From Halioglobus sp. (GTDB taxonomy: Bacteria > Pseudomonadota > Gammaproteobacteria > Pseudomonadales > Halieaceae), in assembly GCA_002699145.1 (NCBI GenBank), contig PABK01000033.1, forward strand, positions 41,902-105,901: a stretch of 64,000 nucleotides of DNA, given 5' to 3'. Every line of letters begins with the position of its first letter. Position 1 is the first letter of the stretch. A model generated the notes under the pieces. It was not told where the DNA came from. It saw nothing but the letters and a program-made list of their open reading frames with translations, and searched no databases. Shown piece after piece: positions 6,078 to 21,437 of this stretch. The translations under genes and the position numbers were made by a program.

Positions 6078-8210
6078 ATGTCTCGCCCCGCCGCGGCCGT
6101 TTTCGGCCTGCTCGTCCTCACGCTGCTCCCGTCCCTGTCCGCCTGCAACGCACCCGGCGCCGCCCCGCCCGGCCTGGCGGCGGCCGTGGACGAGCGGCGG
6201 CTGGTTGCCGCCGACGCCGAGCCGGGGCAATGGATGTCCCACGGGCGCAGTTACGCGGAACAACGTTACAGCCCCCTGGACGACATCGACACGGGCAACG
6301 TGCGCGAACTGGGCCTGGCCTGGTCCTTCGACCTGCAGACCGAGCGCGGCATCGAGGCGACCTCCCTGGTGGTGGACGGCGTCATGTATACCACCTCCGC
6401 CTGGAGTATCGTCCACGCCCTGGATGCGAAGACCGGCGCGCCGCTGTGGCGCTACGACCCACAGGTCCCGCGCGCCAAGGCCAAGCACACCTGCTGCGAC
6501 GTGGTGAACCGCGGCGTGGCCGTATGGCGTGGCCAGGTGTTCCTCGGCGCGCTGGACGGGCGCCTTATCGCGCTGGATGCGAAAACCGGCGCGCTCAACT
6601 GGGAGGTGGCCACGGTCGACCCCGCCCTGCCCTACACCATCACCGGGGCGCCGCGCGTGGTCAAGGACAAGGTGCTGATCGGCAACGGCGGCGCCGAGTT
6701 CGGCGTGCGCGGCTTTATCAGCGCCTACAACGTCGACGACGGCACGCTGGCCTGGCGCTTTTACACCGTGCCCGGCGACCCCGCGCTGGGCTTTGAGAAC
6801 GACGCCATGAAAAGGGCGGCGCAGACCTGGAATGGCAACTGGTGGGAACTGGGCGGCGGTGGCGGCACCGTGTGGGATTCCATGGCCTACGACCCGCAGC
6901 TGGACCTGCTCTACTTCGGCGTCGGCAACGGCACACCCTGGAACCGGGAAATCCGCTCGCCCGGCGGCGGCGACAATCTCTTCCTGTCCTCCATCGTGGC
7001 GGTGCGCCCGGACAGCGGCGAGTACGTGTGGCACTACCAGACCACGCCGGGGGAGAGCTGGGACTACACCGCCACCCAGCACATCATCCTGGCCGACCTG
7101 GACATCGACGGGCGCCAGCGCCAGGTGCTGATGCAGGCGCCGAAAAACGGCTTTTTCTACGTGCTGGACCGCGCCACTGGCGAGCTGTTGTCGGCGGAAA
7201 ACTACATCGACATCAACTGGGCCACCCACGTGGACATGGCCAGTGGCCGCCCGGTGGAGGTGCCCGGGGCGCGCTACCGCGAGACGCCCTACCTCACCTA
7301 TCCCTCTTACCTGGGCGGGCACAACTGGCACTCCATGTCCTACAGCCGCGACACCGGCCTGGTGTATATCCCCGTGCTGGATTTCCCCGCCAATTACGGA
7401 CAGCCGGAGCAGTTCCGCTACAACCCGGGCGTGGCCAATACCGGGGCGGACGGCATCGCCGGCAGCCTGCCCGACGCCCAGGCCGAGCGCGACGCCATGC
7501 GTGCCCTGATCAAGGGGCGCCTGCTGGCCTGGGACCCGGTACAACAGCGCGAGGCCTGGCGCGTGGAACACAGCGGTCCCTGGAACGGCGGCGTGCTCTC
7601 CACCGCCGGCAAGCTGCTCTTCCAGGGCACTGCCGACGGCCGCTTCGTCGCCTATCGCACAGACGATGGCAGTGCGTTGTGGTCCTTCCCCACCCAGACC
7701 GGCGTGGTCGCCGCACCCATCACCTACAGCGTGGACGGCGAGCAGTACGTCTCCATCAATGTCGGCTGGGGCGGCGCCTTCGCGCTGGTGTTCGGCGAGT
7801 TCGTGCAGAGCGACAGCCTGCCCAACGTCAGCAGGGTACTCACCTTCAAGCTCGGCGCCACGGGCGAGCTGCCCCCGGTCGAGTGGCAGCCCTCGGTGGT
7901 GTTCAACCCGCCGCCGCAGCAGGCCGACGCGACCACCCTGCGGCGCGGCTACGCGCTGTACCAGGATGTCTGCATGGGCTGCCACGGCCTCAACGCGGTG
8001 TCCGGCCTGCTCATCCCGGACCTGCGCGGCTCGGCCTACCTGTGGGACGAACAGGGCTGGCAGGAGGTGGTGCGCGGCGGCAAACTGGCCGCGCGCGGCA
8101 TGGCCGCCTTTGGCGACAACCTCGGTACGGACGAAGCAGAGGCGATTCGCCAGTACGTGATCCAGCAGGCCCATCGCGGGCGCGAGGTACGGCGGGCGGC
8201 CAGCGAATGA
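6078..8210 (+). CDS. PQQ-dependent alcohol dehydrogenase with C-terminal cytochrome c domain (quinohemoprotein)
   Basis: Lipoprotein-like N-terminus, vicinal CC (KHTCCDVV), ESWDYTATQHIILADL, APKNGFFYVLDRATGELL, and C-terminal CMGCHG heme motif. Confidence 0.92.
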   Translation: MSRPAAAVFGLLVLTLLPSLSACNAPGAAPPGLAAAVDERRLVAADAEPGQWMSHGRSYAEQRYSPLDDIDTGNVRELGLAWSFDLQTERGIEATSLVVDGVMYTTSAWSIVHALDAKTGAPLWRYDPQVPRAKAKHTCCDVVNRGVAVWRGQVFLGALDGRLIALDAKTGALNWEVATVDPALPYTITGAPRVVKDKVLIGNGGAEFGVRGFISAYNVDDGTLAWRFYTVPGDPALGFENDAMKRAAQTWNGNWWELGGGGGTVWDSMAYDPQLDLLYFGVGNGTPWNREIRSPGGGDNLFLSSIVAVRPDSGEYVWHYQTTPGESWDYTATQHIILADLDIDGRQRQVLMQAPKNGFFYVLDRATGELLSAENYIDINWATHVDMASGRPVEVPGARYRETPYLTYPSYLGGHNWHSMSYSRDTGLVYIPVLDFPANYGQPEQFRYNPGVANTGADGIAGSLPDAQAERDAMRALIKGRLLAWDPVQQREAWRVEHSGPWNGGVLSTAGKLLFQGTADGRFVAYRTDDGSALWSFPTQTGVVAAPITYSVDGEQYVSINVGWGGAFALVFGEFVQSDSLPNVSRVLTFKLGATGELPPVEWQPSVVFNPPPQQADATTLRRGYALYQDVCMGCHGLNAVSGLLIPDLRGSAYLWDEQGWQEVVRGGKLAARGMAAFGDNLGTDEAEAIRQYVIQQAHRGREVRRAASE

Positions 8211-8229
8211 CAACAGCCATCCTCCCCAC

Positions 8230-8630
8230 GTCGCTACTGGCTCTGAACCGTATCACGTCCGGGTAACCGGTATTTTTCCCATTTATCTCCAGCACCCGGG
8301 CGTGATCCTGCAAGAGCGCCGCATTGAAGAAGCTCAGGCGAAAAGCGTTGTGAAACGCGCCCATCACCACGATATTCCGGCCGGCATGCAGTTCGCAGGG
8401 ATGCCCCATTTGACGGTTTCCTCCGGGTCCAGTTGAATGCACAGGCGTCGAAACCCGCGCAATCCCTCGGCCCACTGACTGGTGGCGGACCTGCGAACCC
8501 TTCCGCACGCTCTCCGTATTGAGCAGGCTGTAGTGACAGGCCGGTATCCAGCGTTGCCAGTTGGGATAGTCCAGCACCACGTCGAATACCGAAGCCACGG
8601 GCGCCGGGACAATGCTCAGTACCCAAGGAA
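8230..8630 (-). pseudogene. SRPBCC/START-like family gene, apparently frameshifted
   Basis: Similarity-like segments fall in different minus-strand frames: SVFDVVLDYPNWQRWIPACHYSLLNTESVRKGSQV, then GLRGFRRLCIQLDPEETVKWGIP, then NAALLQDHARVLEINGKNTGYPDVIRF. Confidence 0.45.
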
Positions 8631-8748
8631 AGCGATTACTACCTGTGATGGCATTCTACCCAACTCCCCCGGTCGCGCTTGAACCGCCGGGCGACGCCGT
8701 CAGCGATTTTTACAGCTGCGCGTTTTATGACAGCCCTGTAACAATTAA

Positions 8749-8766
8749 GTCTTTGATTTCAAAGAC
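8749..8766. repeat. Perfect palindrome GTCTTTGA-TT-TCAAAGAC
   Basis: 8-bp arms with a 2-bp centre, immediately upstream of a -24/-12 element. Confidence 0.8.
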
Positions 8767-8767
8767 A

Positions 8768-8783
8768 TGGCCCACTTCTTGCT
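8768..8783 (+). promoter_or_regulatory. Candidate sigma54 -24/-12 promoter
   Basis: TGGCCC-ACTTC-TTGCT matches the TGGCAC-N5-TTGCW consensus with correct GG/GC spacing; about 73 nt upstream of the PEP-CTERM CDS. Confidence 0.6.
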
Positions 8784-8855
8784 CATTACCGAGCGCACCC
8801 CGCCGGCTTCAGCAGGTGGCGGCAACGACTCTCGGTAAGAAACGGAACAGGAACC

Positions 8856-9626
8856 ATGACGATACAGGTAACGAAAGCACACATCGCCAGGCACTGGCTG
8901 GCCGCGCTCGCGGTCGCGCTGTGTACCGCACCTTCGCACGCCATGCTGGTAACCACACCTGCGGGCGCCGATGCCACAGAGGGCAACTCCAGCAACTGCA
9001 TACCCGTGACCGGCTGTGTGGACAGCGATCGCTACCAGCAGGTCTACGACAGCTCGCTGTTCACCTCGGTGAGTGGGCCGCAGGACATCACCGAGTTGCT
9101 GTTCCGCCGCGACCTCACCAGCCCGGCGCCCTTCTCCGTCGACTTTTCCAACGTGGTGATCAGCCTGTCCACCACCCAGGCATCCGCCGCCACGCTGAGT
9201 ACAAACTTCGCGAACAATGTGGGAGCCGACGCCGTGGACGTGTACAGCGGCGCACTGACCGTCGCGTCCGCCTCGGCCGGCGGCGTGCCAGCCCCGCTGG
9301 ATATATCGGTGGTGCTGCAGCAGGCGTTCACCTATGACCCCGCCCAGGGCAACCTGCTGCTGGAATGGGTCAATCTCGGCGGCGAGAGCTATTCAGGGTT
9401 TTTTGCCGACAGCGTGTTCGACCACAACGACGGCACCGCGCGGATTATCGGCTTCGCCCCGGGCTCAGCCACCGGCCTGGCGGACACCAGCGGCCTGGTG
9501 ACCGCTTTCCGGCTGGGCGCGGCCGAGGTGGCGTTGCCCTCCACACTGGCATTGTTTGGGATCGGGGTAGCGGGGATGCTGGCGGGGCGTGGGCGCAACA
9601 GCGCTGCACTATCTCAAACACAGTAG
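8856..9626 (+). CDS. Secreted PEP-CTERM-like sorting-domain protein
   Basis: N-terminal signal peptide (WLAALAVALCTAPSHA) and C-terminal ALPSTLALFGIGVAGMLAGRGR, resembling the PEP-CTERM motif, TM helix and basic tail. Confidence 0.75.
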   Translation: MTIQVTKAHIARHWLAALAVALCTAPSHAMLVTTPAGADATEGNSSNCIPVTGCVDSDRYQQVYDSSLFTSVSGPQDITELLFRRDLTSPAPFSVDFSNVVISLSTTQASAATLSTNFANNVGADAVDVYSGALTVASASAGGVPAPLDISVVLQQAFTYDPAQGNLLLEWVNLGGESYSGFFADSVFDHNDGTARIIGFAPGSATGLADTSGLVTAFRLGAAEVALPSTLALFGIGVAGMLAGRGRNSAALSQTQ

Positions 9627-11463: not shown

Positions 11464-11483
11464 ATTTGGCGGTGAGGGAGGGA
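11464..11483. repeat. attL core direct repeat
   Basis: ATTTGGCGGTGAGGGAGGGA, identical to 21347-21366. Confidence 0.85.
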
Positions 11484-11610
11484 ATATAACCTTCCCGTAT
11501 TTACTGGCCTGCCGAACCTTCCAAAACTCTCTAAACGCTATATATACAGCGTATTTCTACGTTTTACCTTCCCTGCCTTTCCGCACGATTCCGGGGGGAA
11601 CCGGCGTTGT

Positions 11611-11693: not shown

Positions 11694-12962
11694 ATGCCAA
11701 AGCACCTACTGACACAGCCGTATATCAAGGCGGCTAAGAGCGCGTACCACAAACCAGCCGCGAAGACTGATGCGGCCAAGGCCAAGTGCAAGAACTATCA
11801 CAGCGATGGTGGCGGGCTGTACCTGCAAGTCACTGGCAAGCGGAACGCTAAAAGCTGGGTATTCAAGCGGCAGGAGGGCGGCAAGCTCAGGGAGGTAGGA
11901 CTGGGGCCGCTGTCGGAGTTGACGCTGGCACAGGCGCGGGACATTGCTGCGGACATCTGGAAGCTGACCAGTGCCGGTAGTTCCCTGAAGGCTGCGCGTG
12001 ATGCCGTCCAAAAGGAACAAGCCACAGAGGTGCTGGAAGAGGTAGGACTACCCGCCCCGGATGCGATGACGTTTGACCAGTGCGCCGAGAGATTCATTGC
12101 CGAGAAGCTGACCCCAGAGTCCAAGCCGGGAAGCAAGACGGTGCCGCAGTGGGAAGCCAGCTTGAAGCAATACGCATCACCGCACATAGGCAGCATGGAC
12201 GTGGCCGACATCGGCACTGATGACGTTCTGGGCGTTCTCCAGCCGATCTGGCACAAGGTACCTGAGACAGCTTCCCGCGTCCGTATGCGGATTGAGAACG
12301 TGCTGGCGTGGGCAACGGTGAAGGGTTACCGGTCTGGGTTTAACCCGGCTGTCTGGCGCGGCAACCTGTCCCAGTTGCTACCGGCTAAGCAAAAGGTCCG
12401 CCCGGTGAAGCACTTCACTGCCCTGCCCTATCAGGATATGCCCGCCCTGTTCGCTGAGTTGCGTGACAAGGAATCACTCACCAGCTTGGCGCTGCGGTTC
12501 ACGATGCTGACCGCCTGCCGTACTGGTGAAGTGATCGGGGCGCAATGGTCAGAGATAGACGATACAAAAACCGGCATATGGACAATCCCCGCCGAGCGTA
12601 TGAAGGCAGGCAAGCCGCATCTAGTCCCGCTGTCTACTGGTGCCGGGTACGTGCTGGCACAGATCGAGCGCAAGAATGACTGGGTATTCCCCGGCGGCAA
12701 CCACGGCAGGCGCAAAGTCGGTCACATGAGCAACATTGCCCAGCTAAAGCTACTCAAAGAGATGCGCCCTGGTGTCACCGTACACGGCTTCCGTAGCGCG
12801 TTCAGGGACTGGGCAGCGGAAGAGACGGACCACGACAACCACGTAGCGGAGATGGCGCTGGCGCACACTGTGAAGGGCGTAGAAGGTGCTTACCGGCGCG
12901 GTGCCCTGCTAGATAAGCGCGCCGACCTGATGCAAGACTGGTCCAAGTACTTGGGGGCGTAG
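11694..12962 (+). CDS. Tyrosine recombinase / P4-type integrase
   Basis: DUF4102-like N-terminus (HSDGGGLYLQVTGKRNAKSWVFKRQ); catalytic pattern TACRTGEV...HGFRSAFRDWAAEE...HTVKGVEGAYRRG. Confidence 0.95.
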   Translation: MPKHLLTQPYIKAAKSAYHKPAAKTDAAKAKCKNYHSDGGGLYLQVTGKRNAKSWVFKRQEGGKLREVGLGPLSELTLAQARDIAADIWKLTSAGSSLKAARDAVQKEQATEVLEEVGLPAPDAMTFDQCAERFIAEKLTPESKPGSKTVPQWEASLKQYASPHIGSMDVADIGTDDVLGVLQPIWHKVPETASRVRMRIENVLAWATVKGYRSGFNPAVWRGNLSQLLPAKQKVRPVKHFTALPYQDMPALFAELRDKESLTSLALRFTMLTACRTGEVIGAQWSEIDDTKTGIWTIPAERMKAGKPHLVPLSTGAGYVLAQIERKNDWVFPGGNHGRRKVGHMSNIAQLKLLKEMRPGVTVHGFRSAFRDWAAEETDHDNHVAEMALAHTVKGVEGAYRRGALLDKRADLMQDWSKYLGA

Positions 12963-13172: not shown

Positions 13173-13364
13173 ATGAATACCCCTATCGAAAGAATCCTAC
13201 GCCGCCCTGAAGTTCAGCAGATGACAGGGCTGTGCTGTTCTGCCATTTACGCACGGATGGAACAGGGCACGTTCCCGAAGCCCGTGAAGCTAGGTCCGCA
13301 AGCCGTGGGCTGGAAGCTGTCAGACGTGCAGGCGTGGATTGCAACCCTTGAACAAGTTAGCTGA
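13173..13364 (+). CDS. AlpA-family transcriptional regulator
   Basis: ILRRPEVQQMTGLCCSAIYARMEQGTFPKPVKLGPQAVGWKLSDVQAWI is the classic AlpA/MerR-like HTH. Confidence 0.93.
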   Translation: MNTPIERILRRPEVQQMTGLCCSAIYARMEQGTFPKPVKLGPQAVGWKLSDVQAWIATLEQVS

Positions 13365-13544: not shown

Positions 13545-14324
13545 ATGAACAAGCGGGACTATCGCAAGCAGGTGCCAACCATTGCGGCGTCACGGTGGAT
13601 TGATGGGCTAGACATCACGCCAACCGAGGACCATGTACTACGGGTTTTCTGTGACTTCATTGGAGACGACTACACGGCGTTTCCGTCACAGGTAATACTC
13701 GCCAAGCGGTGCAAGTTCAAAGACCGCGAGACAGCCGGTAAGGCCCTGAAGGGATTGCGTGAAAAGGGACTGATTGAAGATACCGGCAAGCGCCGGGGCC
13801 GCGCCGTTGTCTATCACGTCCCAGTACCGGAAGAATACCGACTAAAAAAGAAGTACCAAAGCGAGTCTGACAATAGTGCGGGTTTTACCGGCACTACGGC
13901 AGATTCCAATAGTGCGGGTTCTACCGAATCTAATGCGGGTTTTACCGGCGTCAATAGTGCGGGTTCTACCGGGCCTAATAGTGCGGGTTTCACCAGCACT
14001 AACCTACATAACCTACAGGAACCCACCAAAGAACCTTCCGAAAATGTTTCGGAAGAAATTCCTCCTGAAAAAAAGAAAAAGAAAAAAGGCCCGCCGGATT
14101 CAGTTTGTCACGGTCCTAGCGGCACGGCGTCTGTGTGCGCCGTTGTACAAGTCAGAGCCAACGGAAAGGATACGGCGACTATCGGCATGAATGACATACA
14201 GCTTCAGAAGCACAAGGCCGACAAGGAAAAGCAACTGGCGCTTAACGATCAGAACGCGGAGGCACCGTTGTCCGATGGTGAGCAAGCACAGCTAGACGCA
14301 CTCAGTAAAAAATTTGGGCTTTAG
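13545..14324 (+). CDS. Winged-helix/HTH replication-initiation-like protein
   Basis: N-terminal wHTH pattern (TPTEDHVLRVFCDFIGDDYTAFPSQVILAKRCKFKDRETAGKALKGLREKGLIEDTGKRRGRAVVYHVP), a repetitive SAGFTG/SAGSTG linker, and a Lys-rich segment. Confidence 0.55.
   Translation: MNKRDYRKQVPTIAASRWIDGLDITPTEDHVLRVFCDFIGDDYTAFPSQVILAKRCKFKDRETAGKALKGLREKGLIEDTGKRRGRAVVYHVPVPEEYRLKKKYQSESDNSAGFTGTTADSNSAGSTESNAGFTGVNSAGSTGPNSAGFTSTNLHNLQEPTKEPSENVSEEIPPEKKKKKKGPPDSVCHGPSGTASVCAVVQVRANGKDTATIGMNDIQLQKHKADKEKQLALNDQNAEAPLSDGEQAQLDALSKKFGL
13872..13995 (+). repeat. Iteron-like in-frame direct repeats
   Basis: Five copies of (AATAGT)GCGGGTTYTACCGG-like units; the GCGGG cores are at 13878, 13914, 13935, 13959 and 13983. 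Confidence 0.75.
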
Positions 14325-14360: not shown

Positions 14361-14597
14361 ATGCCATTGTTAAAACGCGCAACATTACGCACCGCCCAGT
14401 TTTTTGCTGATAGATACCGCCAGTATTTCGAGCGTTACATTGCTGCCGGTCTATCACCTACTGCCGCAGACAATCGGGCAGCGGTTCGCATTCGCAATGA
14501 GTTTCGAGTGTTGCCGGTGAGCGAAGCGTTAAAGCTGGTCCCGGCTATTGAGTTAGAGCGGCAAAACTGTATGCGGGCTGTACCGGGGAAATCCTGA
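14361..14597 (+). CDS. Hypothetical protein (78 aa)
   Basis: Intact ORF in the colinear element operon; no recognised family. Confidence 0.5.
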   Translation: MPLLKRATLRTAQFFADRYRQYFERYIAAGLSPTAADNRAAVRIRNEFRVLPVSEALKLVPAIELERQNCMRAVPGKS

Positions 14598-14677: not shown

Positions 14678-15178
14678 ATGATGACTGAAGAACTAGGGGC
14701 CGGGTATATCGCGCTATCCGATCTGGCCGAACTGCTAAAGCTACCACCTGATGACACGGCACAGACTTTCCTAGCCGCCAAGGGAACGGGGCGACCAAAA
14801 CTTGAGAGGTGCTACAGCTTGGAAGGCGTTGCCGAGATTGTTAGCGCACAGACAGGGGAACGGTTCACGGCGCACGATATACCGACACTGACCCCCGAAG
14901 AGCAAGCGGCCAACATGCTGGATATGTTGGGTGTGGGTGTCAGCAACCGAGCATGGGAGCGGTGGCGTAAAGCAGGGAAAGGGCCAACCGCTTATCGAAT
15001 CTGTGACCGCTGGTACTACCGCGCAGCACACGTTATCGCACACGCACTGAATCTGGCCGAGGCAGGACCAGAGCCAGAACCGGCTAAAGCGTGGGAGCCG
15101 CCACCGGCACAGGCAGAGATACTCCCCCCGACTTCCACCAACTTGGAACGTAAACCCAGCAAAGGCGGCTGGTACTGA
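14678..15178 (+). CDS. HTH-type hypothetical protein, paralog-like to the next ORF
   Basis: Shares layout with 15188-15766: N-terminal HTH, YSLEGVAEIVSAQ..., a W.RWRKAGKGPTAYRICDRWYYRAAHVIAHA HTH_17-like C-domain, then a Pro-rich tail. Confidence 0.55.
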   Translation: MMTEELGAGYIALSDLAELLKLPPDDTAQTFLAAKGTGRPKLERCYSLEGVAEIVSAQTGERFTAHDIPTLTPEEQAANMLDMLGVGVSNRAWERWRKAGKGPTAYRICDRWYYRAAHVIAHALNLAEAGPEPEPAKAWEPPPAQAEILPPTSTNLERKPSKGGWY

Positions 15179-15187
15179 GGTATAGCG

Positions 15188-15766
15188 ATGGTGACACAAC
15201 AAGACATCTGGGTAGTAGAGCTAGCGGCGTTGCTGCGCGTTCATCCGTACACCGTCAAGAATCTGTCGGTCAGTGCGGCCTGTACTGGCTGGGCAAGGGG
15301 TGACAAGAAATCCCCCCGCAAGGTCTATGACATCGACAACGTGTTGGCAATCCTGTCCGCACAGAGTGACCGACCAGTAAGCCGGGACGATCTGGGCGAA
15401 CTGATTACGTCCGAGGAAGTGGAACAAGTACTGGCAGACGCTGGGGCAGCACGCGGCCAACACACGATAGCGACTTGGCGACACAGGGGCATAGGCCCGA
15501 AGGCAATCAAGTTGAGCCGGTCTTGTAGGCGGTACGTCCGGTCAGAGGTGGAAGCATGGGCAAAGGCTATCCCCCCTGTAGAGGAAGTAGCCAAGCTAAT
15601 CGGCAAGCAGACGTTGCCGCGTGACTGGTCAGCGCCTGCGAGACCGACTGACAAACCCAACCTGGGGCTAGCCAATGGTCCCAATGGTAGCGCCAGCGTA
15701 AGCGTGGGGGGCGCAGGGGGTTGTGTACTTTTCTCAATCTCTAAAGGCGTCTGTAAGCCCCTCTGA
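15188..15766 (+). CDS. HTH-type hypothetical protein; candidate small terminase or regulator
   Basis: ELAALLRVHPYTVKNL, YDIDNVLAILSAQ, and TWRHRGIGPKAIKLSRSCRRYVRSEVEAWAKA; lies in the last position before terL. Confidence 0.5.
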   Translation: MVTQQDIWVVELAALLRVHPYTVKNLSVSAACTGWARGDKKSPRKVYDIDNVLAILSAQSDRPVSRDDLGELITSEEVEQVLADAGAARGQHTIATWRHRGIGPKAIKLSRSCRRYVRSEVEAWAKAIPPVEEVAKLIGKQTLPRDWSAPARPTDKPNLGLANGPNGSASVSVGGAGGCVLFSISKGVCKPL

Positions 15767-15838
15767 GAGGCTCCCAGAGCGGGCCATAAGATGGGACCAA
15801 TATCAGGGTGAATGCGCCCACAGGGGCACAGAGGAGGC

Positions 15839-15937
15839 ATGGCACAGGAAACAGCAACCGGGCAACTGGTGAAGGTGGAAAAGGCAACCGGGCGGCTGGT
15901 CAAAGTCGAACGGGCCGGGGGGCGAGTATGGCGGTGA
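15839..15937 (+). CDS. Putative 32-aa microprotein with internal decapeptide repeats
   Basis: MAQETATGQLVKVEKATGRLVKVERAGGRVWR. The two main repeat copies differ by synonymous changes (gtg/gtc twice, aag/aaa) and conservative Q/R and K/R. The stop overlaps the terL start. Confidence 0.4.
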   Translation: MAQETATGQLVKVEKATGRLVKVERAGGRVWR

Positions 15938-17475
15938 CTCCGTCCAGTCTGGCGAACCCAATTGCGGCGGCGGTGATCGCGCATATTGAATCCAACCTGA
16001 AGATACCGACCGGGAAACTGGCCGGTCAGCCGTTCAAGTTGCTGCCGTTCCAGCGGAAGTGGATTCACGGTGCCTTTGACCCTGATACAGACGTGGCTGT
16101 CCTATGCATTGGCCGGGGGAATGGTAAGACCGCCCTTGTTGCTGCCATCGCTCACGCGGGCCTTGTGGGCGTCTGTGACGATCAGCCGCGCCGGGAAGTG
16201 ATCGTAGCGGCCCGGACACTGGAACAGGGCCGCGTGGCTTACCAGTACGTCACCGCCCTGATTGAGGGACTACCACAGGAAGAGCAGGAAGCGTACACGA
16301 TCAGGAAAGCGCCCCGGCTCGAAATCACCTACCGGGACCCCACCGGGATGGAACACAGCTTGCGGGTTGTCGCCAGTGATGGCCGGTCCCAGTTGGGCGG
16401 CTCCCCTACTCTGGTGATCTTTGATGAGCGCGGGCACTGGGACGGTGACAAAGGCGACCTAGCCGAAAGCGTTCACATGACCGGCGCACAGAAGCGCGGC
16501 GGCAAAACCTTGATGGTGTCCACGTCTGCCAGTGATGACCTGCACACGTTCAGCCGCTGGATTGATGACCCTCCCCCCGGCACGTTTGTACTGGAGTACC
16601 GCCCAAAGCCAAACATGCCCGCTGATGATCTGGACAGCCTGCTAGAAGCGAATCCCGGTGCCGCGCATGGTGTCGGTGCAAGTCCGGAGAACCTTGTCAG
16701 AAACGCAGAGAGAGCGATTAAGCGCGGGGGGTCTGCCCTGTCGCAATTCCGCTGGCTTGTCCGTAACGAACGGGTAGCGGATGAGAACCGCGCCGTATTG
16801 CTGACAACGGACCAGTGGCTGGGCTGTGAGGTACAGGAACTGCCACAGCGGAAAGGCCCGGTGGTGATCGGACTGGATGCTGGCGAGTCTGCGAGCATGT
16901 CAGCGGCTGCGTATTTCTGGCCTGAGTCTGGGCGACTGGAAACGCACGCATGGTTCCCGAGTGAACCCGCCCTGCTAGATCGCGGACAGAATGACCGGGT
17001 AGCAGACCGTTACCACCTGATGCATGAACGTGAAGAGCTATCCCTGATCGGTAACCGTACGGTCCCGATTAAAAACTGGGTACAGCAAGTCATGGCACAG
17101 GTACAGGGCGAACCGATTCACGCACTGGTAGCGGACAAGTTCAAAGAGTCCCAGTTTCTGGAAGGCGTACAGGCGGCGGGCATTACTGCCCCGGTGATCT
17201 GGCGGCGGTTTGGATTCTATGACGGTAACGAAGATATAGACCGATTCAGGACCGCTTGCCTAGACGGTGAGGTAAGGCACCTGATTAGTTTGTTAATGCG
17301 CTCCGCTATCTCTGACTGCGTAGTCCAGCGCGATGACAACGGCAACAACCGACTAGCCAAGGGCCGGTCACTGGGCCGAATTGATGCGGTAGCCGCTGCC
17401 GTGATTGCAGTCGCGGAAGGCAAGCGCCTGACTGCCAGACCGAAAGCGAAAGCGCCCCGCGTTGCATGGGCATGA
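15928..17475 (+). CDS. Phage terminase large subunit (TerL)
   Basis: Walker A-like CIGRGNGKTALVAAIA, VIFDERGHW Walker B region, and nuclease region GLDAGESASMSAAAYFW. Start set at the internal ATG (MAVTPSSLANP). Confidence 0.93.
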   Translation: MAVTPSSLANPIAAAVIAHIESNLKIPTGKLAGQPFKLLPFQRKWIHGAFDPDTDVAVLCIGRGNGKTALVAAIAHAGLVGVCDDQPRREVIVAARTLEQGRVAYQYVTALIEGLPQEEQEAYTIRKAPRLEITYRDPTGMEHSLRVVASDGRSQLGGSPTLVIFDERGHWDGDKGDLAESVHMTGAQKRGGKTLMVSTSASDDLHTFSRWIDDPPPGTFVLEYRPKPNMPADDLDSLLEANPGAAHGVGASPENLVRNAERAIKRGGSALSQFRWLVRNERVADENRAVLLTTDQWLGCEVQELPQRKGPVVIGLDAGESASMSAAAYFWPESGRLETHAWFPSEPALLDRGQNDRVADRYHLMHEREELSLIGNRTVPIKNWVQQVMAQVQGEPIHALVADKFKESQFLEGVQAAGITAPVIWRRFGFYDGNEDIDRFRTACLDGEVRHLISLLMRSAISDCVVQRDDNGNNRLAKGRSLGRIDAVAAAVIAVAEGKRLTARPKAKAPRVAWA

Positions 17476-17753
17476 ATCGGGCCGGAGAGAAGATATACCG
17501 CACAAGCCGTTGGAAGGCTTTAAGATGGCAGGTATTGCAGCGGGATAACTTTCGCTGCGTGGTTTGCAAGGCAAGAAGCCCGCTAGAAGTCGATCATATA
17601 AAAGCGATTCGGGTTGCACCTGAACTGGCATACGAAATCACTAACCTACAGACACTATGTCGTAGGTGTCACAGCCGCAAGACGCGGGAGGAGGTATTAG
17701 GGCCGCTCAATCCTGAACGGGAGAAGTGGCGCGAATTAGTATTAGATACGTGA
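17466..17753 (+). CDS. HNH endonuclease
   Basis: RDNFRCVVCKARSPLEVDHIKAIRVAPELAYEITNLQTLCRRCHSRKT. Confidence 0.95.
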   Translation: MGMNRAGEKIYRTSRWKALRWQVLQRDNFRCVVCKARSPLEVDHIKAIRVAPELAYEITNLQTLCRRCHSRKTREEVLGPLNPEREKWRELVLDT

Positions 17754-17765
17754 GGTATTTAGACC

Positions 17766-19019
17766 ATGTTGGAGTCTGTAAAGATTCAGAAGCGCCAGAG
17801 TGAAATCCGGCAGGAGCTAGCTGTTCTGGCTGGCAAAGAAACCCCCGAGGAAACCGAAGTGCGGTCTATGGCTGACTTGGATTCCGAGTATCAGACGAAC
17901 GAGACCCGCTACCGTGCGGCCTTGATCGCTGAAGATACTGAGCGCCGTGAAGCTGGTGAAGAACTGGAAGAACGCAGCGAAAAGGAATACGCGGAACTGG
18001 TAGACGGTTTCGAGTTGCGCCAAGTCGCTGACTTTCTGGACGATGGTTCCGCGCTGTCTGGGCAGACTGCGGAAGTCGTGCAGGAAATGCGTTCACAGGG
18101 CAGCTATCAGGGTGTGCCGGTTCCGCTGGCAGCACTTGAAGTCCGTGCCGGTGAAACTATCGCGTCTGGGACTCCGGACCCGAAGACTACCCGCAATGTG
18201 ATTGACCAGCTTTTCCCCGCGTCTGTTATGTCTCAGATGGGCGGACAACTGGTGAACATCTCCAGCGGCCTGCACGAATGGCCGGTGGTGACACAAGGCG
18301 CGTCTACTGGCTGGGCTGCAACTGAAACCGGTGACGTAGGTTCCGCGCAAGCGTTCCAGACTACGGACAAGTCCCTGTCACCGGATAACACGCTGGGTTG
18401 CCAAATGACCCTGACCCGTAAGGCAATGAAGCAAAGCGGTCCCGCGATGGAACAGGCTGTGCGCCGTGATATGAACAGCGCAATTTCTGCCGCACTGGAC
18501 CACGCTGCATTCCTTGGCACTGGTGCCAGTGGTGAACCGCTGGGCGTTGTACAGGGTGCCAGCACTTACGGCATCACTGAGACCGCCCTTGATGCGTCTG
18601 TGACCTATGCCCTACTCCGCGCCGTTGCGACTAACTTCATGGTTAGCAACGCGGCGACCAGCTACAAGCAAGTCTCCATGCTGATGCGGCATGAAGTCCT
18701 AGACGATCTGGATGACGCTGTGCTGTCTGGTACAGCCGTTACCGATCTGGACCGGATTGCTAGCAAGCTGGCCAAGGTACTGACTACCAGCAACGCACTG
18801 GCAGCGCCTGCCGGTTCTCCGCTGGAAACCAAAGCGGTAATGACTACCAGTGCTGGTGGTGTTGCGCCGTTCTTTGTGGGTATCTGGGGTGGTGTCGATC
18901 TTATCCGCGACCCGTACACGAAAGCGGCCAGCGGTCAGCTTGCCCTGACTGGTCTGGTAACCGCAGACGTAACGGTAGCGCGTCCGGCACAGCTTCACGT
19001 TATCACTGATATTCAGTGA
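17766..19019 (+). CDS. HK97-fold major capsid protein
   Basis: N-terminal charged coiled-coil delta-like region, then RNVIDQLFPASVMSQMGG..., DMNSAISAALDHAAFLGTGASGEPLGVVQ. Confidence 0.93.
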   Translation: MLESVKIQKRQSEIRQELAVLAGKETPEETEVRSMADLDSEYQTNETRYRAALIAEDTERREAGEELEERSEKEYAELVDGFELRQVADFLDDGSALSGQTAEVVQEMRSQGSYQGVPVPLAALEVRAGETIASGTPDPKTTRNVIDQLFPASVMSQMGGQLVNISSGLHEWPVVTQGASTGWAATETGDVGSAQAFQTTDKSLSPDNTLGCQMTLTRKAMKQSGPAMEQAVRRDMNSAISAALDHAAFLGTGASGEPLGVVQGASTYGITETALDASVTYALLRAVATNFMVSNAATSYKQVSMLMRHEVLDDLDDAVLSGTAVTDLDRIASKLAKVLTTSNALAAPAGSPLETKAVMTTSAGGVAPFFVGIWGGVDLIRDPYTKAASGQLALTGLVTADVTVARPAQLHVITDIQ

Positions 19020-19029
19020 GGCTAGCGCC

Positions 19030-19635
19030 ATGTTGTTTGGTGCGATTGCTGGTGACCTAGAGGTCCGCCGTAAAGGGGGAAGTACTCGCCTGTCTGGGAG
19101 CTTCCCCTATAACTCATTGGCAACACTGAGTGATGGCGGGCGTCGAGGCCGACCACGTAAGGAGCGGTTTGCGCCGGGTGCGTTCCAGTACTCCGTTGAA
19201 TCTGGGGAACTGGATATACACCTACTGGTGGGCCATGACTTTGGGAAACCCCTAGCCAGTAAGGACGCGGGCAGCTTGCTCCTGCGTAGTACTGATGACG
19301 GTCTGTTTTTCAAAGCGACAATTTCTGATGAAGTACTGAATACCAGCCACGGCAAAGACGCTATGTCGATGCTGTCCGCTGGTCTTATCGGTGGCATTAG
19401 TCCGGGCTTCCGGATTCCGCCAGAGCGAACAGTACCGAATGCGGAGACCGTCGAAGATGAAGACCCCAGCGAAGGCACAGCGATTATCAGAACGGTGAAC
19501 GATGCCATTCTGTACGAGCTGTCCCTAGTGACCCGCCCTGCGTATCCAGACACAACCGTAGAAGAGCGGAACTGGCAAACCAGCCCTGACAAACTAACCC
19601 CAGGAATTTCTATTCCTGCGTATCGGTGGCGGTGA
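19030..19635 (+). CDS. HK97-family prohead protease
   Basis: ERFAPGAFQYSV, LVGHDFGKPLASKDAGSLLL, GGISPGFRIP, and ILYELSLVTRPAYPDTTVEER. Confidence 0.93.
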   Translation: MLFGAIAGDLEVRRKGGSTRLSGSFPYNSLATLSDGGRRGRPRKERFAPGAFQYSVESGELDIHLLVGHDFGKPLASKDAGSLLLRSTDDGLFFKATISDEVLNTSHGKDAMSMLSAGLIGGISPGFRIPPERTVPNAETVEDEDPSEGTAIIRTVNDAILYELSLVTRPAYPDTTVEERNWQTSPDKLTPGISIPAYRWR

Positions 19636-20204
19636 TGACTACTGAAGTGATCAAGTTTGAAGAGGCAGAAGCGGCTACGTGGCCAAGCGTAGACGTGCGC
19701 GACGAAGGCGGAACCCTTGAGGAAACGCTGGCCGTTGTGCCGCACGTCTGGCAGCGTATCGAGGACCACATTGCTTACCGGTGGACTGCCCGCCAGTGTG
19801 TCTGGACTGTTCAAGGTCCGGGTGATTGGCGTCCGCACCTGTCGCCAGTATCTGCCGTGACGGTAGAAAGCTGGGACGAAACCACTAAGGCATGGTCTGC
19901 CCTGATTGCCGAGCCTATCCCCGCTGATGGGTTCTACCTGCCCCGTGATAAGACGTACCGAATCACGGCAACCGTGGGCGACACAGAAACCGCTGTACCC
20001 CAGCCGGTAGTCCAAGCGTATCACCGCCTGTCTGGTTACCTGTCAGAAGTCGCGCTAGACGATAAGCCGGTGGGTGCTACTACGCATTCCCTGAAGCTGG
20101 GCGATGGTCTGGACGAATCGACTACCCGCAACCCGAACTATGTTGCCCGCGCTTTGCAGTACTCCGGTGCTGCCGATCTATTGCGGAAATATCGGAGGCT
20201 GTAA
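19626..20204 (+). CDS. Head-tail connector (gp6-like) protein
   Basis: Size, position between protease and portal, and gp6-like pattern (VVQAYHRLSGYLSE... RNPNYVARALQYSGAADLLRKYRRL). Confidence 0.75.
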   Translation: MAVMTTEVIKFEEAEAATWPSVDVRDEGGTLEETLAVVPHVWQRIEDHIAYRWTARQCVWTVQGPGDWRPHLSPVSAVTVESWDETTKAWSALIAEPIPADGFYLPRDKTYRITATVGDTETAVPQPVVQAYHRLSGYLSEVALDDKPVGATTHSLKLGDGLDESTTRNPNYVARALQYSGAADLLRKYRRL

Positions 20205-21259
20205 TGGGCTGGAAATTTTGGGAGAAAGACAAACCGGAAACCCGTGCGGCTGCACAGGGGTTCACTGCTGACCTGATGGCAGCGCGTGAAAGTTACCTGT
20301 CTGGGTCCAGCGGTTCCGGTGAACTGACAGCGACTGTGCAAAGCTGTGTCAGTCTCTGGGAACATGGCCTGTCCATTGCAGACGTACAGGGAACGGATTA
20401 CCTGTCCGCGCATTTGCTGGGCATCATTGCCCGGTCACTGGCGCTACGCGGTGAAGCTGTCCTGTACCTTGCACCTGATCGCCTGCTACCGGCGTCTGAC
20501 TGGGACGTAAGTACACGGGGCGGCATTCCTCGTGCCTATCGTCTGTCAATCTCTGAAGCGGGCGGCGGCACTTCTCAGACCGCCCTTGCAACTGAAGTCC
20601 TGCACTTCCGTATCGGTAGTGATGCGGTAACCCCGTGGGCGGGTACGTCACCGCTGCGCCGGTCTAACCTGACTGCCAGTATGTTGCACTGTATTGAGTC
20701 CGCACTGGGTGAAGTCTATGACCTTGCCCCGCTGGGTTCACAAGTTCTCCCGTTCCCTGAATCACCGTCAACTGACCTAGACAAACTGGGTGCCGGTTTC
20801 AGGGGCAAGCGCGGCAGGATGCTGCTACGGGAGTCTGTGAACGTCACCAGTGCGGGTGGGCCTGCACCTAACACGGACTGGAAACCTAGCGACCTGTCCC
20901 CCGATCTATCCAAAGCGATGACCGCTGAAAGTCTGGAGGCTAGCCGTGCCAGTATCCTATCCGTTTACGGCGTACTGCCTGCTATGTTCGACACCAGCAC
21001 AACGGGACCGCTTGTCAGAGAAGCACAACGCCACCTTGCCCAGTGGGTACTCCAGCCGATTGCGAACTGCATTGCACAGGAAGCGACTGCGAAACTGGAT
21101 ACGCCAATTGCGCTGGACGTTATGCAACCGCTGCAAGCGTTTGACGCGGGCGGACGTGCGCGGACTGTTGGCGCTATTGTGGAAGCACTTTCCAGAGCAA
21201 AGGAGTCTGGGGTTAATCCCGATGATGCCCTGAAGCTGGTGAACTGGGCGGAAGATTAA
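20204..21259 (+). CDS. Phage portal protein (HK97 family)
   Basis: EVLHFRIGSDAVTPWAGTSPLRRSNLTASM, RASILSVYGVLPAMFD, and VREAQRHLAQWVLQPIANCIAQE. Confidence 0.92.
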   Translation: MGWKFWEKDKPETRAAAQGFTADLMAARESYLSGSSGSGELTATVQSCVSLWEHGLSIADVQGTDYLSAHLLGIIARSLALRGEAVLYLAPDRLLPASDWDVSTRGGIPRAYRLSISEAGGGTSQTALATEVLHFRIGSDAVTPWAGTSPLRRSNLTASMLHCIESALGEVYDLAPLGSQVLPFPESPSTDLDKLGAGFRGKRGRMLLRESVNVTSAGGPAPNTDWKPSDLSPDLSKAMTAESLEASRASILSVYGVLPAMFDTSTTGPLVREAQRHLAQWVLQPIANCIAQEATAKLDTPIALDVMQPLQAFDAGGRARTVGAIVEALSRAKESGVNPDDALKLVNWAED

Positions 21260-21346: not shown

Positions 21347-21366
21347 ATTTGGCGGTGAGGGAGGGA
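21347..21366. repeat. attR core direct repeat (within tRNA-Ser 3' end)
   Basis: ATTTGGCGGTGAGGGAGGGA. Confidence 0.85.
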
Positions 21367-21437
21367 TTTGAACCCTCGATACGTTTCCGTATACACACTT
21401 TCCAGGCGTGCGCCTTCGACCACTCGGCCACCTCACC
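21350..21437 (-). tRNA. tRNA-Ser(GGA)
   Basis: GGTGAGGTGGCCGAGTGGTCGAAGGCGCACGCCTGGAAAGTGTG...GGTTCAAATCCCTCCCTCACCGCCA; anticodon loop CTGGAAA, long variable arm, encoded CCA. Confidence 0.95.

Follow-up and report, generated by a model that had tools for sequence, protein, structure and literature searches.

A tandem winged-helix protein beside the large terminase of a capsid-encoding satellite: a candidate small terminase and a putative packaging site

The small terminase (TerS) is the component of the packaging machinery that selects the DNA for the motor, and in phage P22 the packaging site lies within the TerS gene itself (pac in gene 3). In lambda and HK97, the TerS gene sits between cos and the gene for the large terminase (TerL). 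TerS proteins span 15 to 21 kDa (PMC9611059), and cfPICIs, satellites that build capsids of their own, encode one (PMC10690885). A question raised by self-capsid satellites in which no TerS can be recognized is how they direct packaging to their DNA.

The element described here, found in a 64,000-nucleotide stretch of a Halioglobus contig (the window), resembles the cfPICIs in carrying an integrase, AlpA, a replication gene, TerL, HNH, capsid, protease, adaptor, and portal genes (the adaptor assigned by position and conservation) and in having no tail genes. It differs in lacking a recognizable TerS, the only TerS matches being marginal ones of a homologue of one of its proteins, in its TerL-HNH-MCP-protease-adaptor-portal order, and in the tandem genes P1 and P2 that lie 5' of TerL. 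Together with its relatives it offers a defined candidate for the DNA site, a candidate for the protein that recognizes it, and natural elements with and without P2, making the question directly testable.

The satellite element and its paired genes

By gene content, the window element is a capsid-encoding satellite. It is about 9.9 kb long and is bounded by 31-nt near-repeats at a tRNA-Ser gene (Table 1). No tail genes were detected among its ORFs using Pfam and PHROG families, and across all of those ORFs, P1 and P2 included, neither collection returned a TerS match, as an earlier note on this DNA had anticipated when it pointed out that TerL comes next with no recognizable TerS before it. 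One IMG/VR contig, 3300020466_000337 (L001; 9,566 bases), carries the element, its two ends matching the start of integrase and the stop of portal; P1, P2, TerL, and portal are 100% identical in the two copies. Within the O-like replication gene, imperfect spaced repeats of 21 to 36 nt at 13871-14010 may be iterons of an origin like the one within lambda O.

Table 1. Features of the satellite element, in window coordinates
Feature	Coordinates	Strand	Remarks
Putative attL	11464..11494	.	31 nt, 27/31 identical to tRNA-Ser end; direct repeat D4
Tyrosine integrase	11694..12962	+	ORF; 44% identity to integrase of sister element
AlpA	13173..13364	+	Pfam Phage_AlpA E=6e-19; 65% in sister element
Replication initiator, O-like	13545..14324	+	phrog_270/391 E about 1e-10; contains repeats 13871-14010
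78-aa ORF	14361..14597	+	No family match (Pfam, PHROG)
P1	14678..15178	+	166 aa; two-domain predicted DNA-binding protein; P2 paralogue; extra copy, this element only
P2	15188..15766	+	192 aa; tandem winged-helix protein (model pLDDT 88.8); candidate small terminase; L177 homologue E=3e-16
Putative cos/packaging site	15674..15734	+	Within P2 3' end; family-site profile E=0.027
TerL, HK97 type	15928..17475	+	phrog_9 E=2e-57; longer GTG start at 15808 possible
HNH endonuclease	17466..17753	+	Pfam HNH E=5e-11
HK97-fold major capsid protein	17766..19019	+	Phage_capsid E=5e-15
Prohead protease	19030..19635	+	Peptidase_S78 E=6e-21
Putative head-tail adaptor	19626..20204	+	By position; 88 ORFs match it
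Portal protein	20204..21259	+	phrog_12 E=1e-6
Putative attR	21347..21377	.	End of tRNA-Ser(GGA) gene (21350-21437, minus strand)

P1 and P2, each preceded by a plausible ribosome-binding site, encode paralogues, judging by their alignment (BLASTP E=2e-8, 25% identity across 122 aa) and by a Smith-Waterman score of 89 that none of 1,000 shuffles reached (mean, 30.4 +/- 4.9). The view that these are tandem, architecturally related ORFs of 166 and 192 aa is thus borne out, as is the homology that pairwise alignment was proposed to reveal. The shared motifs quoted earlier are present in both proteins, the central block reading CYSLEGVAEIVSAQ in P1 and VYDIDNVLAILSAQ in P2 and the C-terminal W motif WRKAGKGPTA...WYYR and WRHRGIGPKA...RYVR, respectively; only the W motif needed a small correction, its third residue being K or H rather than R or H. 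Two small features flank the pair: a CCTATA-tt-TATAGG palindrome just 5' of P1 (14614-14627), a possible operator, and, between P2 and TerL (15839-15937), a 32-aa ORF that contains the internal repeat ATGQLVKVEKATGRLVKVERAGGRVWR.

A sister element, L177, occurs in the genome of another species of the same genus (G775). It carries a single 165-aa P gene (7445-7942) that is nearer to P2 (33.5% identity, E=3e-16) than to P1 (27%, E=1e-6), making P2 the conserved copy and P1 the extra one. The stop of this gene overlaps the TerL ORF (7923-9425) by about 20 nt, and the order rep-P2-TerL is kept in both elements of this one genus. The replication genes of the two elements do not align, while identity is 76% for portal, 65% for AlpA, 61% for capsid, 59% for protease, 58% for HNH, 51% for adaptor, and 44% for integrase. 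L177 TerL is only 31% identical to that of the window where HNH, capsid, and portal reach 58 to 76%, a pattern that may reflect TerL replacement or fast divergence.

P2 and its L177 homologue had no match among phage proteins, nor P2 among plasmid proteins; searches of viral contigs with P1, P2, or their alignments returned only the identical L001 and two unrelated HTH_17-like proteins, and class- and order-wide genome searches gave, outside the host, matches to the second domain only.

Fold and family affinities of P1 and P2

Residues 1 to 135 of P2 are predicted to form a pair of winged helices with the fold seen in MerR, AlpA, and lambda gpNu1, the model (pLDDT 88.8, pTM 0.79) showing two beta-helix-helix-beta-beta-helix domains; its alignment includes AlpA rows, which may bias the second domain. 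The tail after residue 139 was modeled with low confidence, and no helical-hairpin core was predicted in P2. A full-length P2 model built with P1 alone as the added sequence reached a pLDDT of 49.7 and was rejected. The "double HTH" architecture proposed in the earlier note therefore stands for P2, where the model and weak second-domain HTH_17 and phrog_66 matches agree with it, and the model speaks for P2 only.

In Foldseek searches of the PDB with the P2 model, every match had an E above 0.2; the highest-ranked, at probabilities of 0.90 to 0.91, were the TerS DNA-binding domain 7lwr (rank 1, 0.91) and the excisionases RdfS and GIsul2, followed lower down by TerS 7lw0, lambda 1j9i, and BldC. 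We confirmed that 7lwr, 7lw0, and 1j9i are small terminases (Nu1-family DNA-binding domains). By sequence, the second domain of P1 and P2 has clear remote similarity to AlpA/excisionase proteins (phrog_66), its closest relatives: the P2 domain matches phrog_66 at E=1.3e-5, aligns with the AlpA ORFs of related satellites at hhalign probabilities of 72 to 78% (E about 2e-5), and the profile of AlpA cluster c24 matches P2 at 1.2e-4. HTH_17 matches (17 and 18.9 bits) fall below the curated cut-off of 27. P1 and P2 themselves matched no TerS family in Pfam or PHROG, Phage_Nu1 included, while in the L177 homologue the N-terminal domain gave weak matches to DUF1441 (E=0.011-0.026) and to phrog_141, a family labeled "terminase small subunit" (E=0.016-0.032). 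Proteins with DUF1441 are annotated or proposed as TerS, 5' of TerL, in Ahp2 and phiAxp-2 (PMC8001559, PMC5037462).

These scores have to be read against lambda gpNu1, which as a control gave phrog_66 at 2e-6, phrog_141 at 6e-8, and HTH_17 at 0.011. Because a true TerS scores in this way, neither the fold nor matches to HTH_17 and phrog_66 can tell the two kinds of protein apart, and AlpA-like scores are compatible with a TerS. The check suggested earlier, TerS against AlpA/MerR families, gave weak TerS matches for the homologue's N-terminal domain, an AlpA-like second domain, and a fold that regulators share.

P2 resembles gpNu1-type TerS (Phage_Nu1, phrog_57, phrog_141, DUF1441) in its winged-helix fold (from the model, with Foldseek E values that are not significant), in size, P2 and its homologue at 165 to 192 aa suiting the 15- to 21-kDa range, and in a gene that adjoins TerL in the window and L177, near the putative packaging site. 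It differs in having two tandem winged helices, no predicted dimerization helix, and no Phage_Nu1 match. With AlpA/Xis/HTH_17 regulators (phrog_66), P1 and P2 share the W-R-x-x-G-x-G-P motif and wing of the second domain; unlike the one-domain AlpA ORFs here, of about 60 to 90 aa, they add a further domain at the N terminus and a tail, and their genes lie beside TerL.

A conserved site upstream of TerL in related elements

Relatives were collected with a two-sequence TerL query, the second sequence coming from a plasmid match (52% TerL identity). The query yielded 44 genome loci, mostly from Rhodobacterales and allied groups, together with 142 viral contigs; retaining 80 of the latter gave about 124 related elements, mostly of Rhodobacterales. 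Nearly all share the TerL-HNH-capsid-protease-adaptor-portal block, with gp6-like connectors at other positions in some loci, and the TerL of alphaproteobacterial members is 50 to 57% identical to that of the window.

A family site lies 5' of TerL, consisting of TGGTCCCAATGCCCC, then G-rich tracts, then TTCGCGCT. Of the 99 distinct elements whose upstream sequence was long enough, 66 carry it, where first-order shuffles predict 0.0. For 39 of 51 cases the GGTCCC-to-TTCGCGC distance is 55 nt, and the estimated TerL start lies no more than 75 bp from 54 of 80 copies. When 2.9 million viral contigs were scanned with the strict pattern, 40 contained it, and 39 of these belong to this element family; the fortieth, L143, looks like a chance occurrence and was rejected as a genuine site. 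We regard the conserved site as a putative cos.

Scanning the whole window with the site profile placed the top match (runner-up, E=2.5) within the last codons of P2. In L177 the site (7870-7926, E=0.0019) likewise falls in the 3' end of the P gene and in the same reading frame (ANGPNG...GGAG), and nucleotide identity between the two P2 genes is 0.53 at the site versus 0.43 elsewhere. Flanking the window site (15676-15799) is an 8-bp inverted repeat, TGGTCCCA (15676) and TGGGACCA (15792), 108 bp apart and each the sole copy in the element; we rejected it as a family feature, as it is not general in related elements.

P1/P2 homologues were not found in the related, mostly alphaproteobacterial elements, where the sole matches were their AlpA ORFs. 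Nor did a TerS appear among their accessory proteins (121 proteins of about 100 aa or more from 61 near-complete elements), either in the 18 of 18 Pfam families matched or in the best 25 of 49 PHROG families. The PHROG scan is the meaningful test for TerS, since the positive control HK97 gp1 gave a PHROG match of 8e-85 and no TerS match in Pfam. The related elements thus likely have no TerS, and because their TerL follows the DNA site with no P1/P2-like gene, an "empty TerS slot" appears to be normal for the family. Some relatives carry extra ORFs between site and TerL; the one in L005 (7562-7993) is on the minus strand and nuclease-like.

Packaging specificity or regulation

Our best single reading, held tentatively and at somewhat under an even chance, is that P2 is a TerS-like packaging-specificity protein and P1 its duplicate. 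According to this reading, P2 would use its tandem winged helices, members of the gpNu1/AlpA superfamily, to bind the packaging site that its gene carries near the 3' end, site-bound P2 would recruit TerL, and TerL with HNH would cut at the site and pack satellite DNA into satellite capsids; P1, a lineage-specific duplicate, may act as a second specificity subunit or a regulator. What points this way is the rep-P2-TerL order in two elements, with the homologue's stop overlapping TerL, the family-wide site in frame at the P2 3' end in both, the fold matches to Nu1-family domains along with the homologue's weak TerS matches, and the lack of any other TerS candidate in the element. Between the window and L177, moreover, P2 (33.5%) and TerL (30.7%) are the most diverged alignable genes, the other shared genes ranging from 44 to 76%; this fits a co-evolving or co-exchanged pair, two elements being too few to separate partnership from plain fast divergence. 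Arguing against it, relatives with the same site and a 50 to 57% identical TerL have no P1/P2 or TerS match, so that P2 tracks element lineage rather than TerL or site; the second domain is nearest AlpA/phrog_66, with marginal TerS matches in the homologue only; and the site, if it is cos, does not have P1 and P2 on its TerL side, where lambda and HK97 have their TerS genes. The suggestion that one copy is a diverged TerS and the other a regulator or second factor is thus partly supported, by the conservation, position, site overlap, and gpNu1-type fold of P2, and is weakened by the relatives with no TerS match and the AlpA-like second domain.

A purely regulatory role follows close behind, chiefly because the wider family lives without P1/P2 and because P2 would lie beyond the putative cos as seen from TerL: there is a sizable chance, about one in three, that both are AlpA/Xis-type regulators of excision or of the packaging/capsid operon, the site merely overlapping the P2 end. 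AlpA is known to activate PICI induction (PMC6092414), the P2 second domain matches phrog_66 and satellite AlpA ORFs, and Foldseek rates RdfS and GIsul2 about as probable as TerS. However, the element already has an AlpA, gpNu1 also matches phrog_66 and HTH_17, weak N-terminal matches of the homologue point to TerS families, and the P2-site overlap is kept in both elements. Adaptors that redirect a helper-phage TerS or TerL to satellite sites, in a role like that of Rpp in proteobacterial PICIs, would fit the lack of a recognizable TerS, and PICIs do encode such factors (PMC10690885), but this is improbable for a satellite that itself encodes TerL, HNH, and capsid proteins. We give similarly little weight to the site being a promoter, operator, or origin whose overlap with P2 has nothing to do with packaging. 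It does adjoin the TerL start, and contig ends near it are too few for mapping a cut, but the minus-strand ORF that separates it from TerL in L005 argues against a plain TerL promoter, the site is nearly confined to this element family among viral contigs, and its rigid spacing and G tracts would suit a terminase/HNH target.

A broader scenario, which we consider rather doubtful, is that a widespread, mostly alphaproteobacterial satellite family packages from a rigid site by TerL and HNH without a dedicated TerS, and that the window clade added a two-winged-helix TerS, partly encoded by the site, and then duplicated it.

The genome that holds the window, whose partial 16S sequence shares 84% identity with that of E. 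coli, also contains part of a second element of the same clade, L172 (G000 contig C20:1-2988). The contig start cuts its capsid gene, and the assembly did not yield the left half; what is present lies beside a tRNA-Ser(TGA), with a protease 86% and a portal 79% identical to those of the window element.
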